Positions 7,616 through 64,000 of a DNA stretch of 64,000 nt are shown here, piece by piece; position 1 is the stretch's first letter, and every line of letters begins with the position of its first letter. Origin of the DNA: Amycolatopsis thermalba (GTDB taxonomy: Bacteria > Actinomycetota > Actinomycetes > Mycobacteriales > Pseudonocardiaceae). The translations under genes and the position numbers were made by a program. The notes under the pieces were generated by a model. It did not search any database, was not told the DNA's origin, and saw only the letters and a list, made by a program, of their open reading frames with translations. The stretch spans positions 1 through 64,000 of the forward strand of contig NZ_PQHW01000010.1 of the NCBI RefSeq assembly GCF_003385215.1, in the 5' to 3' direction.

Positions 7616-8737
7616 TCACGAGATCGCCGCAACGGCCAGGCCGTGTATACGGGTGGGCAGGCCCCTGTCCTGGAGTGCCGCCCGGTGTCCCACGTTGTCC
7701 GTGAGCAATTGCACCGAACGTACGCCCAGGTCCCGAAGGATGTGCGCGGCGACCGACGACAACATCCGGCCGGTGTCGAACCGGCCCACGGCAGAGCCGC
7801 GATGACCGGCAGTTCCACTGGGCCGTAAGTAGACCACCACGCCGGTACCCTCCGCGGTGATCGTCGCCAGGGCCCGGTCCAAGCGGTACCGGCACTCACA
7901 GCGCAACGACCCGAACACGTCGCCGGTCAGGCACTCCAGGTGGATGTGCACCGGCACGTCCTCGCCATCCCGGGGCCGGCCGACGACCAGCGCCAGGTGT
8001 TCCGCCCCGTCGACCAAGCCGTGATAGCCGACCGTCCGGGTCACTCCTGCCTGCAGCGGCAGGCGAGCCGTCACCTTGCGCGACACCAGGGGCTCGGTAC
8101 TCAGGCGGTGCGCGATCACGTCGCTGATCGAGACCGTCACGAGACCGTGAGCGCGGGCGAAGGCGTCCAGCTCCGCTCCGTGGGCGAGCTCGGTCGGGGT
8201 GAGCGCGCTGTCCAGGGCCGCGAACAGTGCCACCGGGCGGCGTCCGGCAGCACGCGCGAGGTCGGCTGCCGCCTCCGCGACTCCATCGCGCCGGAACACG
8301 CCGCCCTCGGCGGCGCGGACCGGGATCACGTGGCCCGGCCGGATGAAGTCGGCTTCGGACGACTCCGGGTTCGCCAGCAGCGCCACCGTTCGAGCGCGAT
8401 CATGTGCCGAGATCCCCGTCGAGATACCGCTTGCCGCGTCGACCGTGACGCATGCCGCCAGCCCGTCCGGGTCGTTGGCGGCCCCGGTCATCGCGGGCAG
8501 GTCCAGCCGATCGCATTCGGCCCCCGGCAGTGCCACGCACAGCAGACCGGACGAGTGCCGGACGAAGAACGCCGCGGAACCGGTCGTCACCGTCTCCGCA
8601 GCCATGACCAGGAAGCCGTTCGCCCGGGCAGTCCGGTCGTCGGCCAGGACGACCGGCTTGCCGGAAACCATCGCGGCCACAGCGCGTTCGACCCCGGTTC
8701 CGGTGGATGTCGCGCCGCCGGGAAGGTGAAGCGTCAT
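7616..8737 (-). CDS. Degenerate RibBA-like protein (DHBP synthase/GTP cyclohydrolase II fold)
   Basis: 373 residues with two recognisable domains. Residues about 12-215 follow dihydroxybutanone-phosphate synthase (RibB), including DRARTVALLANP and RPGHVIPVRA. The metal/catalytic loop that normally reads D-E-D-R-E-N-E-G-D is DDRTARANGF here, so the acidic residues are gone. Residues about 220-373 follow GTP cyclohydrolase II (RibA) and keep the zinc cysteines (LECLTGDVFGSLRCEC; Cys269, 280, 282). They lack the EGRGIGL segment and a stretch of about 25 residues after it. Riboflavin biosynthesis by this protein is therefore unlikely. It overlaps the flavin reductase start (ATGA) and shares the operon with acyl-CoA dehydrogenases. 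Possible roles are flavin binding, chaperoning or a new reaction (inference). Confidence 0.8.
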   Translation of the reverse strand: MTLHLPGGATSTGTGVERAVAAMVSGKPVVLADDRTARANGFLVMAAETVTTGSAAFFVRHSSGLLCVALPGAECDRLDLPAMTGAANDPDGLAACVTVDAASGISTGISAHDRARTVALLANPESSEADFIRPGHVIPVRAAEGGVFRRDGVAEAAADLARAAGRRPVALFAALDSALTPTELAHGAELDAFARAHGLVTVSISDVIAHRLSTEPLVSRKVTARLPLQAGVTRTVGYHGLVDGAEHLALVVGRPRDGEDVPVHIHLECLTGDVFGSLRCECRYRLDRALATITAEGTGVVVYLRPSGTAGHRGSAVGRFDTGRMLSSVAAHILRDLGVRSVQLLTDNVGHRAALQDRGLPTRIHGLAVAAIS

Positions 8738-51268: not shown

Positions 51269-51735
51269 TCAGCTGACGCCGTAACCTCCGCGATGGAACA
51301 GCAGCGGCGAACGACCGGAATCGACTCCCAGGGCGGTGACCTGGCCGACGACAACGGTGTATTCGCCACCGTCATACTCGTTCCGGAGCATGCAGCCGAT
51401 CCAAGCGTTGATATCACCGAGGACAAGAGCTGCGTTCGGCGCGGGCGACCAATCACCCCGGCGAACTTGCCGGTGCCGCTCCTCGCGAACGCATCGCCGA
51501 GCCCTTGCTGGCCCCGCACAGAATGTCACGCAGAACTAACCGGCCTTCCGGATCCTCGGCCAGGTCGAGAACGTCCGTGCCGGAGAGAACGAGACGAGTG
51601 GCGGTTCGAGCGACAGGGACGCGAACGACTGACAAGTGAAGCCCGCACGACCAGCGTCCCCGATCGCAGTGATCACCACTCCCCCGACGCGGAACGCCCC
51701 AGCAACTCCCGCATCCTGTCGGCGTCACCGGGCGC
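51269..51735 (-). pseudogene. Flavin reductase pseudogene
   Basis: A flavin reductase (HsaB-like) can be traced across frames. DADRMRELLGRSASGEW is cut by a stop. The next frame reads VVITAIGDAGRAGFTCQSFA, SLSLEPPLVSFSPARTFSTW and an in-frame TAG. Then come AFARSGTGKFAGV in another frame and DINAWIGCMLRNEYDGGEYT with PLLFHRGGYG at the end. At least two frameshifts plus a nonsense codon disable it. It lies between the second regulator and the LLM gene, consistent with a lost reductase partner. Confidence 0.8.
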
Positions 51736-52367: not shown

Positions 52368-53435
52368 TCACATCTTCTGAAGGACAGGCATGACCTCGCG
52401 GGTGAACAGCTCGTAGCTGTCGGTGGCCTTCTGCCCCATCAGGCCGCCGTACTGGAAGACCATGATCGGCTCGTAGTCGCCCACGATCGCCTTGCGCTCC
52501 TCGTGCTTCGCGATCTGTTCCTCCGGGGTACCCCAGATCTGGGCATTGACGTAGGTGTCGACGACCGCGTCCAGACCGTACTCGTCGATCGCCTCCTTGG
52601 CGGCGGCGTACGAGGCGTACCCCTTGGTCGACTCGAAGTGACGCCCGCCGAACTCGTAGTGCTCCACGCAGCACATGTAGTAGTTGGCGATCGCCTCGAA
52701 CGCGACCGTGCGCGCCTCCTCCGAGTCGCGGTGGCAGTAGGTGAGGTCGATCAGCAACGGCGCCGGGGCCTCGCCACCGTGGTGCTCGCGGTAGGAATCG
52801 CGGTACTGCTGGATCATCGGCATGTGCATGGTGTCCATCGGTCCCTGGATGAAGGCCATCATGGTCACGCCCAGCCGTCCCGCGGTGACAGCGGAGTCGG
52901 GGCTCATCGCCACGCAGGTCGTGCGGCCCTTGAAGGTCGCGAGCGGAGCCGGGTGGATCGGCACCTTGGCCTGCGGGTAGTACTTGCCGTCGTTTTCGAC
53001 GAACCCGTCCTCGAGACCGCGGATGATCATTTCCGCCGCCTCGTCGAAGCGCTCGCGCGACTCGCCCATCTCGATGCCGAAGCCCTCGAACTCGCGACGT
53101 GCCAGGCCGCGGCCCATCCCGAACAGGGCACGACCGTCGGACAGGTTGTCCAGCAGCGCGATCTTCTCGACGACCCGCATCGGGTTGTTCCACGGCAGGA
53201 TCACCGCGGTGGTGTGCACCTTGGCGTTCTTGGTCCGGCCGGCCAGGTAGGACAGGAACTGGGTGTTGTCCGGACACATCGAGTAGCCCGGGTCGAAGTG
53301 GTGCTCGACGCAGCCGATGCTTTCGTAACCGTCCTCGTCAGCCCGCAGTGACAGCGCGATATGATCGCGGTAGACGTCGTGGTCCTTGTGGGCGTTGTTG
53401 TAGTTCTGGAGGAGATTGGTCATGTGAATTTTCAC
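52368..53435 (-). CDS. LLM-class flavin-dependent oxidoreductase/monooxygenase
   Basis: 355-residue luciferase-like TIM barrel. N-terminal MTNLLQNYNNAHKDHDVYRD; CVEHHFDPGYSMCPDNTQFL; RVVEKIALLDNLSDGRALFG with MGRGLARREFEGFGIEMGES, a typical FMN-dependent LLM block; C-terminal [20 protein letters not shown]. Such proteins usually take FMNH2 from a reductase and insert oxygen; no intact reductase is adjacent, only the pseudogene at 51269. GTG 53435 is fixed by GGAGG at ideal spacing; longer upstream frames are spurious. A truncated copy lies at 19463. A regulon dyad stands 276 bp upstream. Confidence 0.92.
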   Translation of the reverse strand: MKIHMTNLLQNYNNAHKDHDVYRDHIALSLRADEDGYESIGCVEHHFDPGYSMCPDNTQFLSYLAGRTKNAKVHTTAVILPWNNPMRVVEKIALLDNLSDGRALFGMGRGLARREFEGFGIEMGESRERFDEAAEMIIRGLEDGFVENDGKYYPQAKVPIHPAPLATFKGRTTCVAMSPDSAVTAGRLGVTMMAFIQGPMDTMHMPMIQQYRDSYREHHGGEAPAPLLIDLTYCHRDSEEARTVAFEAIANYYMCCVEHYEFGGRHFESTKGYASYAAAKEAIDEYGLDAVVDTYVNAQIWGTPEEQIAKHEERKAIVGDYEPIMVFQYGGLMGQKATDSYELFTREVMPVLQKM

Positions 53436-61814: not shown

Positions 61815-61853
61815 GCTGCGCTCCTTTGCGTGCATTGTAGGTGTTCATGCGGC

Positions 61854-62050
61854 TCAGCCCATCCGGAAGCCGCGGTTGACGGCTACGACGGTCCCGGCCG
61901 TGCAGGCGGCGGGTGGCGACGCGAGGGTGTCTTGCGTCGCCGCCGGGCCTCGCGAGCGAGCAGTGGTCGCCCGGCTCGCCGTGGCCTGCGATCACCGCTC
62001 CGAGTGCGCCGGCGTTGGTAGCACACCGTTGACGCTCCGCTCCCTGGTGC
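61854..62050 (-). pseudogene. Decayed 3-prime end of an SDR (copy of the 53.9-kb SDR)
   Basis: The last codons read LASPPAACTAGTVVAVNRGF with RMG and a stop, against LASPHAAYMTGTVVDVNGGF in the intact gene at 53932. The nucleotide sequence 61849-61925 is nearly the same as 53925-54002. Further upstream, LGAVIAGHGEPGDHCSLARP shows scrambled remnants of the intact GAVETNMIAGRGYSGDYCPL. No start or catalytic residues remain. Confidence 0.75.
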
Positions 62051-62212
62051 TCGAAAGCGTTGGTGGAACACACGGCGTGGCCGTTCAACGATCGCCGGTT
62101 CCGGCCGCTCTCGCCGGCAGGTGACGACCTACTACCGAGAGCGAAATCGTTCACTGGGTTCTCCACGGCGCGACAATGCGGACGAGATCGACGGCTGCTC
62201 GACCGGTTCGAG

Positions 62213-62281
62213 CTTGTTCACCGCTTCGTCGAAGGTAGCGATCCTCGTCACGGCACCGTTGTTGCATTCCGCTACAGTCCC
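62213..62281. repeat. Leader segment duplicated from 53663-53733
   Basis: About 70 bp matching the LLM leader, with GAAGGTAGCGATCCTCGTCA and the dyad TGTTGC-N5-GCTACA followed by GTCCC. It is not followed by an intact LLM gene; the nearest downstream minus-strand genes are the SDR fragment and the hydrolase at 61814. Confidence 0.75.
62260..62276. promoter_or_regulatory. TGTTGC-N5-GCTACA dyad (regulon site 7)
   Basis: TGTTGCATTCCGCTACA differs from the 53711 site by one base. It may still activate the metallo-beta-lactamase-fold gene and SDR about 450 bp downstream on the minus strand. Confidence 0.6.
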
Positions 62282-62283
62282 GC

Positions 62284-62709
62284 CGCCCCGGCTGATGCCG
62301 TGCTCCTGGCAGACCTGCCCGACCAGCGCCTCCGTGGGCAACGCGTGGGTGGCCAATGGGCTCGTGCGCGCCGTCCGTCAACTTCCGGCGGGACGCCGAA
62401 GCGGTGGATCGCAGCCGGAGCCTCGCCCCACGTCCTGCCGGTCGCCGGTGACCAGGCTGCACTCACGTGCACCTGGCGAGGGCCGTCTCCGCCATCGTTG
62501 CACCGGAACAATGGGCGGAGAGCCAGTGCGTGCCGGCGAACCGGGCGTGCACCCGAGTCGGCGTCCTTTCGGACGTCGCACCCGTCCTGCAGACCGGCGC
62601 TGCAGCCCTGAAACCCGCGCATCGCCGTCGCCCGGCGACGTTGGTCACCGGCTCCCGCGACCGGGCATTCACCGCAGACCGGGGGCGGTGTTACGGCTCG
62701 GTCGTCCGT
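62284..62709. other. Region without a recognisable gene
   Basis: About 425 bp between the duplicated leader and the RibB-like/riboflavin kinase gene. I find no start with a ribosome-binding site and no recognisable domain. It is probably decayed sequence. Confidence 0.5.
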
Positions 62710-63771
62710 TCAGCGCTGAACGGACGAAGGGACAAGGTGCGCGACGAGGGCATTCGTCCGGGCGATGTCGTCCGCGATCGCGTCGATCAGTTCGGTCTCG
62801 CCGTTGAATTTCGTCATCCCGCGCAGGCGCCGCACGGAGGTCACCGTGACGCGCATCCCGTAGATGTCGTCGTCGAAGTCGAGCAGGTGGGCCTCCAAGG
62901 TCCGTTCGTCCCGGTCGAACGTGGGGTTGGTACCCACCGAGATCGCCGCGGCACGTAGTCGCCCGTCGTCCAACCGGACGATTCCCGCGTAGACACCGTC
63001 GCCGGGCAGAGCGGCGCCGGCGGGCTGGTCCACGTTGGCCGTGGGATAACCGAGACGACGGCCCAGCTGCCGGCCCCGGACCACGACGCCTGCCGTCTCC
63101 CAGGCATGCTCGTTGTTCGCAACCATTCCCACCTCCATGTGTTCGGCGCGTCCCGTTGGTGACGAGGCCTGGTACCGGTGAGCCACCAGTTCGGACAGCG
63201 CAAGGACGGGCAGGGAGTGCTCGGCGGCGAATCGGGAGGCCTCGGCCTGATCGGCCATGTGCAAAGGGTTTTCGCGCGATACGAGCTCACCCAGCGCTGC
63301 TGCCGGTGGGAGGCCGGCGAGGACCGCGAGATCGACGGCGGCTTCGGCGGGTGTCGGGTTGTTCACGACTCCGCCGGGCGAAACGCTGACCGGGACGACG
63401 TGGCCGGGTCGTGAGAAGTCGGCTGCGGAGAAGTCGGGAGAGGCGAGGGCCGCGATGGTGCGGGCGCGGTCGGCACCGGAAATTCCGGTGCCGGCGCCGA
63501 GGAGGTCCACGGTGACGCGGTACGGGGAATCACCGAATCGGTGCATCCGCGGGAGGTTGAGCCGTTCGCAATTCTCGTCGGTCAGGGCGGCACGGATGAA
63601 GCCGGAGGTGTGGCGGACGGTGAACCCGACGAGGTTCGCCGTCGCCCGGCAGGCGGCGAAGACGAGGGTTGCGTCGGCGTCGTAGAGGTCGTCCTTGACG
63701 ACGACAGGATTGCCTGCAGCGATCGCGTCGATGGCGTCTCGCACGGTGGCCTCACCCAGGAGTGTGCGCAT
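62710..63771 (-). CDS. RibB-like (degenerate) / riboflavin kinase fusion protein
   Basis: 353 residues. Residues about 8-200 follow dihydroxybutanone-phosphate synthase (DRARTIAALASP, FSRPGHVVPVSVSPGGVV, EAAVDLAVLAGLP). The catalytic acidic loop is DDLYDADATLVFAA instead of D-E-D-R-E-N-E-G-D-L, so RibB activity is doubtful. Residues about 228-345 are a riboflavin kinase domain with VRGRQLGRRLGYPTANV, GVYAGIVRL, ISVGTNPTF and the conserved Glu of LEAHLLDF (about 293). The usual RibF FAD-synthetase half is absent. ATG 63771 follows AAGGGA. A flavin reductase is encoded upstream on the same strand. I infer FMN production or flavin handling for a monooxygenase. Confidence 0.85.
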   Translation of the reverse strand: MRTLLGEATVRDAIDAIAAGNPVVVKDDLYDADATLVFAACRATANLVGFTVRHTSGFIRAALTDENCERLNLPRMHRFGDSPYRVTVDLLGAGTGISGADRARTIAALASPDFSAADFSRPGHVVPVSVSPGGVVNNPTPAEAAVDLAVLAGLPPAAALGELVSRENPLHMADQAEASRFAAEHSLPVLALSELVAHRYQASSPTGRAEHMEVGMVANNEHAWETAGVVVRGRQLGRRLGYPTANVDQPAGAALPGDGVYAGIVRLDDGRLRAAAISVGTNPTFDRDERTLEAHLLDFDDDIYGMRVTVTSVRRLRGMTKFNGETELIDAIADDIARTNALVAHLVPSSVQR

Positions 63772-63887
63772 GATCGATCCCTTCAGATGGCGCCCGGCTC
63801 CCTGAAATCCCGTTCGTCGGGCTCCGCCGTGCGCCGAACTGGTCCCCGGTCGTCCCCGGCATCGGGGCTGGCAGGATGCCCGGCGTG

Positions 63888-64000
63888 TCAGGCAGCTGTC
63901 AGGCGGTGGAACTGACTGCCGTGGAAGACCAGCGGCGCCGTCCGCGGATCTGCGCGCATGCCATGGATCAGGAGCAGAACGATGTCGTGGTCTCCCGCGG
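63888..64000 (-). CDS. Flavin reductase, C-terminal end (partial at window edge)
   Basis: The last 36 codons on the minus strand read AGDHDIVLLLIHGMRADPRT, then APLVFHGSQFHRL and a stop. They align with the end of the reductase at 8734 (AAGDHTVVLLEVNDL ... APLVFHGSRFRRL). The gene continues beyond the window. It lies 116 bp upstream of the RibB-like/riboflavin kinase gene, reproducing the pair at 8734-7616. Confidence 0.85.
   Translation of the reverse strand, partial: AGDHDIVLLLIHGMRADPRTAPLVFHGSQFHRLTAA

Follow-up and report, generated by a model that had tools for sequence, protein, structure and literature searches.

At the end of the stretch of Amycolatopsis thermalba DNA that we analysed (64,000 nucleotides, hereafter the window), a single gene encodes a RibB domain that has lost its catalytic residues (RibB') joined to a riboflavin kinase (RFK), next to a flavin reductase (FR) gene. 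This fusion is a one-off variant, and the general finding is that RibB domains that have lost their catalytic residues are encoded beside flavin reductases, an arrangement that is common in the genus. We consider it probable, with real room for doubt, that FR and RibB'-RFK formed the flavin-supplying part of an operon for an NtaA/DszA-type two-component FMN-dependent monooxygenase, in which RibB' would be a non-catalytic partner, and that the module has been orphaned. The features concerned are the following (positions in the window, unless the contig is named).

7616..8737, minus strand: second degenerate RibB gene, RibB'-GCHII' (RibA1/MelJ-like), its ATG overlapping the reductase stop codon
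8734..9252, minus strand: second flavin reductase gene of the window, partner of the RibB'-GCHII' gene
61836..62709, minus strand: no intact gene recognised by eye; remnants, for example of a short-chain dehydrogenase C-terminus
62710..63771, minus strand: RibB'-RFK fusion gene, 353 amino acids plus stop, ATG start, last minus-strand gene of the window
63157..63771, minus strand: RibB-like (DHBP synthase) part, residues 1-205, without the catalytic set (Pfam, alignment)
63124..63136, minus strand: internal GGAGGTG-GGA-ATG, a Shine-Dalgarno sequence with a start codon (Met216) where the RFK part begins (pattern search)
62749..63108, minus strand: riboflavin kinase domain, residues 222-341, PTAN (243-246) and Glu293 kept (Pfam, motif)
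63891..64000, minus strand: 3' end of the flavin reductase gene (whole gene at contig 63891-64436; PF01613, E 3.8e-35)
Contig 64530-64937, outside the window, upstream of FR: truncated NtaA/DszA-type monooxygenase, 136 residues (TIGR03860)
Contig about 64936-65886, outside the window: IS5-like element that truncates the monooxygenase frame (transposase match, inverted repeats)

The RibB'-RFK protein and its relatives

Using Pfam, we assigned residues 12-197 of the fusion protein to DHBP_synthase (E 1.2e-48) and residues 222-341 to Flavokinase (E 5.6e-35), with no further family at E <= 1, FAD synthetase (FMN adenylyltransferase) included. The RFK part keeps the PTAN motif and the Glu of RibF, and RibB' occupies the place of the FAD-synthetase domain. 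The sequence-only reading had described a RibB-RFK protein of this length without the FAD-synthetase half, a kinase domain with PTAN and the catalytic Glu, and a flavin reductase gene preceding it, and was right on each of these points. The RibB part also matches DHBPS 3mk5 (E 1.8e-39). Both the FR frame and the 353-codon frame are intact and have a coding-like GC3 of 0.80-0.84, which together with the E-values shows that neither gene is a chance reading frame. An AlphaFold model of the fusion, based on a shallow alignment of 17 rows, is fair for the RFK blocks (mostly pLDDT 61-90) and poor for the RibB half (27-50), so the modelling proposed at the outset for inspecting the RibB pocket adds nothing on that pocket.

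We aligned the RibB part with the RibA2 domain of M. tuberculosis and others. YDADAT (residues 30-35) stands in place of the RENEGD loop, Arg60 in place of the Cys that follows SGF[LI], and NPTPAE (138-143) in place of RxGHTE, with Pro for His. TGIS (95-98) and RPGH (121-124) are retained. The RENEGD loop, the Cys and RxGHTE are what we take to be the catalytic and metal-binding positions of DHBP synthase, and two of the seven catalytic residues that we scored are present. The part is thus a DHBP synthase domain by sequence that lacks the RENEGD/Cys/RxGHTE set, and canonical DHBP synthase activity appears unlikely. The proposal that it had lost its acidic loop holds for the catalytic set and goes slightly too far for the loop itself, in which two Asp remain.

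The genome encodes an intact RibBA (contig C79) and a RibF with the FAD-synthetase motif GVFDGVH (contig C215), which rules out the fusion as a substitute for missing housekeeping rib genes; it is therefore not a routine RibB or RibF variant of a strain that lacks the canonical genes. A second intact RibBA is encoded on contig C156, near an NtaA-like luciferase-like monooxygenase (LLM) and an FR.

Among the matches listed, the nearest relative of the window RFK is a stand-alone RFK of Amycolatopsis saalfeldensis (68-69% identity). Its gene directly follows an LLM gene, and FR, RibBA and LLM genes lie in the same cluster; by eye, this RibBA has intact RibB motifs and a GCHII motif that is not intact. 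With the window RFK as query, seven of 390 family genomes gave a match at E <= 1e-33, a cut-off that may miss more diverged RFK fusions; among these, the close matches come from the genome itself and A. saalfeldensis only, and the other five share 53-56% identity. In a phylogenetic tree, the RFKs of the window and of A. saalfeldensis form one clade (support 99/100) and the genome's own RibF is placed elsewhere, which rules out the latter as the source of the window RFK. The tree carries a warning about long-branch joins near L272 and L273, and among its sequences labelled RFK-only, L061 and L077 (open reading frames of 344 and 381 residues) are probably RibF.

The search for this architecture that the sequence-only reading had called for found RibB and RFK in one open reading frame in six of 276 loci examined, all six being copies of the window's own gene. 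The survey included 13 genomes in which RFK matched at least twice, in addition to the genome itself and A. saalfeldensis, 12 extra RFK loci examined in full, and 30 loci inspected from one search that spanned 298 genomes. A contig scan gave at least 80 loci, and in the 80 listed, L058 alone contains a RibB. Among the matches listed from the open-licence PMC literature, neither a RibB-RFK protein nor a dead RibB as reductase partner was found.

Other arrangements link the kinase and the reductase independently of the window. In each of two genomes (G378 and G621), a single cluster (L272 and L273) encodes RibBA, an NtaA-type LLM and FR together with a stand-alone RFK, and in genome G083 Pfam detected MFS transporter, RFK and FR domains in one open reading frame beside two LLM genes; genome G150 has an open reading frame of the same kind. 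The clusters at L272 and L273 look like an extended form of the C156 cluster. The MFS-RFK-FR protein was seen as a single open reading frame beside LLM genes at L275 (5599-8205, minus strand) and at L276, and is possibly a flavin uptake and activation protein. Around the stand-alone RFKs at L265-L267, L270 and L271, in family genomes, the query panel detected no FR, LLM or RibB within 12-13.5 kb.

The internal GGAGGTG-GGA-ATG is the sole match of its pattern in the window, where 0.15 are expected, and at least one match occurred in 14 of 100 shuffles. Because the RFK's own Shine-Dalgarno sequence and ATG survive inside the reading frame, we infer that two neighbouring genes, RibB' and RFK, were joined in frame recently, probably in this strain, and free RFK may also be made from the internal ATG. 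The same internal start would also fit accidental read-through in decaying mobile debris, brought about by stop-codon loss or an assembly error, with nothing here under selection any longer, and the single occurrence of the fusion, the gene remnants at 61836-62709 and the truncation of the monooxygenase at an insertion sequence fit that explanation as well. We nevertheless regard it as unlikely, given that FR and the 353-codon frame are intact with the GC3 quoted above and that the active-site motifs of the RFK are unchanged.

The truncated monooxygenase and its probable former operon

Only the last 110 bases of FR lie inside the window; the contig continues to 105,166 bases, and on it the order is truncated monooxygenase, FR and RibB'-RFK, successive genes being 90 and 116 bases apart and FR lying on the same strand as the fusion gene. 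We interpret this arrangement as a single operon that has since been broken. The FR is closest to 4ywn, an NADH-FMN oxidoreductase (161 bits). The monooxygenase fragment covers positions 292-422 of the 422 of TIGR03860, the NtaA/DmoA FMN-dependent monooxygenase model (E 3.8e-32), and scores 112 bits against a full-length cut-off of 280; the oxygenase is not intact. An NtaA-family oxygenase beside a short-chain flavin reductase, the mark of a two-component system, is thus present here in truncated form. Its relatives in PDB are DszA (77 bits), hexachlorobenzene dehalogenase (70 bits), EDTA monooxygenase (64 bits) and riboflavin lyase (62 bits); since two thirds of the protein is gone, its substrate cannot be named.

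The element at which the frame ends is bounded by 22-nucleotide inverted repeats of 91% identity (contig 64936-64957 and 65865-65886). Its transposase matches Pfam DDE_Tnp_4 above the cut-off and the NCBIfam IS5 family model below it (106 against 140 bits). The N-terminal part of the monooxygenase was not seen across the element, where a helicase gene ends. Next to the element lies a gene pair encoding an OLD-like ATPase and a UvrD-like helicase (contig 65896-69773, minus strand, beyond the window), for which the NCBIfam matches are weak and which presumably resembles a Gabija-type defence pair. On the other side of the unit, between RibB'-RFK and a gene of the metallo-beta-lactamase fold, a remnant resembling a short-chain dehydrogenase C-terminus was recognised by eye at 61836-62166.

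A search for close relatives of the fragment gave a match at E <= 1e-18 in 49 of the 390 family genomes, its own included, the best other sharing 45% identity and the best-scoring other 41%. Of 30 short loci with such matches, one is the fragment's own, and in the 29 others the query panel found neither FR nor RibB within about 1.5 kb.

The sequence-only reading had proposed a dedicated reduced-flavin supply unit and, as an alternative, flavin catabolism. The first is partly supported and remains the best reading, and it gains a likely client in the truncated NtaA/DszA-type monooxygenase upstream. The RFK would turn riboflavin into FMN, the FR would reduce FMN to FMNH2, and FMNH2 would have served the luciferase-like monooxygenase next door. 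That monooxygenase is truncated at the IS5-like element, which probably leaves the module an orphan in this strain. The catabolic alternative is less supported. It holds that the truncated monooxygenase is a riboflavin lyase of the RcaE kind with FR and RFK as its partners, and a kinase, a reductase and a ribokinase are reportedly the partners of RcaE. The C-terminus of RcaE shares 38% identity with the window fragment over 120 residues, and RcaE, as presented in passages of PMC12746152, is an FMN-dependent riboflavin monooxygenase encoded in a set of five genes. The rca cluster and the window unit thus share a monooxygenase family, but the fragment scores higher with DszA than with riboflavin lyase, the window unit has a RibB' and the RibB' line occurs beside different monooxygenases, and neither a transporter nor a ribokinase was recognised by eye among the listed open reading frames of contig 58-78 kb. 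A search of 394 class genomes with the RcaE C-terminus, run without a positive control, gave no match. We consider riboflavin catabolism quite improbable for this locus.

Degenerate RibB domains in the genus

We searched 19 genomes of the genus for RibB domains. The 69 rows obtained with PF00926 correspond to 19 housekeeping copies and 48 other loci, two of which gave two rows each. Copies that retain four or fewer of the seven scored catalytic residues were called dead, and FR and LLM genes were detected with a query panel of five FR and five LLM sequences (E <= 1e-7). All 19 housekeeping copies are intact, and none has an FR or an LLM in its locus. Among the 20 dead accessory copies, 16 have an FR on the same strand within 1.5 kb (17 have any FR in the locus) and six an LLM. 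For the 22 intact accessory copies the corresponding numbers are eight, 12 and 18, and for the six partial copies four, five and five. In these 16 dead copies, 0-152 bases separate the FR match from the RibB match. The window copy is the only one in the census with an RFK.

Counted among the dead copies are L202, which matches only partially, stands beside an intact GCHII and is probably a truncated active gene, and the broken genes L214 and L215; if these three are set aside, a same-strand FR lies within 1.5 kb of 15 of the remaining 17. How copies sort into the three classes depends on the alignment, and four copies (L142, L198, L203 and L204) were called partial though their loop is lost. 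Fisher's exact test for FR in 16/20 dead against 0/19 housekeeping copies gave p 1.5e-7, a value that overstates independence because many dead copies are orthologs of each other; by eye they fall into about seven FR-linked lineages. Flavin reductase genes with a degenerate RibB or RibBA gene beside them are therefore common in the genus, these degenerate genes resemble MelJ/RibA1 of the mycobacterial mel2 locus, and the altered RibB is ruled out as a peculiarity of the fusion protein.

In 12 degenerate pairs (nine dead and three partial), dN/dS of the RibB domain is 0.09-0.36, values without a significance test that compare with 0.16 for one pair of copies with intact RibB residues and 0 for a housekeeping pair. 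With such low ratios, the degenerate genes look as if they were kept as something other than DHBP synthases. Two of the dead pairs have neighbours of the acyl-CoA-dehydrogenase fold (PF08028), a fold that HsaA-type oxygenases also have.

The dead copies retain TGIS and RPGH, with three exceptions: RPGH is not kept in the broken L214, neither motif is kept in the broken L215, and in L202 TGIS has become TGVS. This retention in the unbroken degenerate copies while the metal site changes, and the two Asp in the YDADAT loop, could mean that the RibB part catalyses a new reaction or retains some activity, coupled to the kinase and acting perhaps on a different sugar phosphate. We find this very doubtful, as in the window protein Pro has taken the place of the His of RxGHTE and Arg that of the Cys, and both positions vary among the dead copies.

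We also noted that the second FR and RibB'-GCHII' pair of the window lies between acyl-CoA dehydrogenase-like genes, and that the window carries an FR-like stretch with one internal TAG (51278-51688, minus strand) close to an LLM gene (52488-53387), which is possibly a broken pair. Genome G138 encodes eight RibB domains (L042 and L140-L145), and FR or LLM genes lie in the loci of several of these. Loci L044-L050 have the make-up of the mycobacterial mel2 locus with a degenerate RibB, and from their gene order, read by eye, and the locus range given in PMC5584760 we take them to be the counterparts of Rv1936-1941.

Known systems and a possible role for RibB'

The window unit can be seen as a variation on a mel2/RibA1- and lux-like theme, in which RFK has the position usually held by a degenerate GTP-cyclohydrolase half. 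Unlike RibB', LuxH is regarded as an active enzyme, and no RFK fusion is known to us from the lux genes. RibF shares with the fusion a homologous RFK domain in which PTAN and Glu are kept, and differs in its FAD-synthetase domain.

In the lux system, as compared in passages of PMC1793995, a luciferase-fold monooxygenase occurs with its own flavin reductase, LuxG, and the DHBP-synthase gene product LuxH. The same passages describe mel2 (melF-melK; Rv1936-1941, a locus range also given in passages of PMC5584760) as encoding a LuxA-like MelF and a LuxH-like MelJ, with flavin-reductase, DHBPs and GTPcycII domains named in a figure legend. Thus mel2 combines the LLM monooxygenase MelF with a flavin-reductase-like domain and with MelJ, a protein of DHBPs-GTPcycII make-up, as the window unit brings together an LLM, an adjacent same-strand FR and a RibBA-derived gene; from the gene order, we read MelI as the mel2 reductase. 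The two differ in that MelJ has a GCHII-like half where the window protein has RFK, in that the window LLM is of the NtaA/DszA type and truncated, and in that no MelG-like or epoxide-hydrolase-like gene was recognised beside the window unit, where a short-chain dehydrogenase gene lies about 1.8 kb downstream, past the remnants. In the ipp cluster of Rhodococcus sp. D-6, a stand-alone RibB-like gene, the RibBA-like orf2560 (214 amino acids), is listed between the genes of a flavin monooxygenase's oxygenase, IppA1, and reductase, IppA2, and the passages of PMC12442392 on this cluster mention no RFK. A DHBPS/GCHII gene is also reported with an NADH-FMN oxidoreductase in a Rhodococcus pathway, in passages of PMC6498646.

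RibB' probably descends from accessory RibBA enzymes that would once have made riboflavin precursor for such operons. Because RibB' has lost the catalytic set and yet stays beside flavin reductases in its relatives, a role as a binding or scaffold partner seems most likely, a view that, like the activities and the expression of the unit, we draw from sequence. Against a flavin-supply module with a non-catalytic RibB' stand the single occurrence of the fusion, the broken monooxygenase, the LLM genes in only six of the 20 dead loci, the two dead pairs with an acyl-CoA-dehydrogenase-fold neighbour instead, the 14 of 22 intact accessory copies without a same-strand FR within 1.5 kb, and the stand-alone RFKs around which the query panel detected no FR, LLM or RibB.

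A broader and more tentative idea, which we rate as possible though rather doubtful, is that the dead RibB is a widespread actinobacterial flavin adaptor pseudoenzyme that would bind flavin or the reductase and channel FMN and FMNH2 from kinase to reductase to monooxygenase. If so, RibB'-RFK would be a Rosetta-stone protein that ties the kinase into the flavin channel, and MelJ/RibA1 would be a member of the same group. It has long been asked how FMNH2 reaches a monooxygenase from a reductase before oxygen can destroy it, and here a pseudoenzyme from riboflavin biosynthesis, encoded beside flavin reductases and once fused to a riboflavin kinase, would be a concrete flavin adaptor candidate. 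It would also give a testable role to the RibA1/MelJ-like genes that are still annotated as riboflavin-biosynthesis enzymes.
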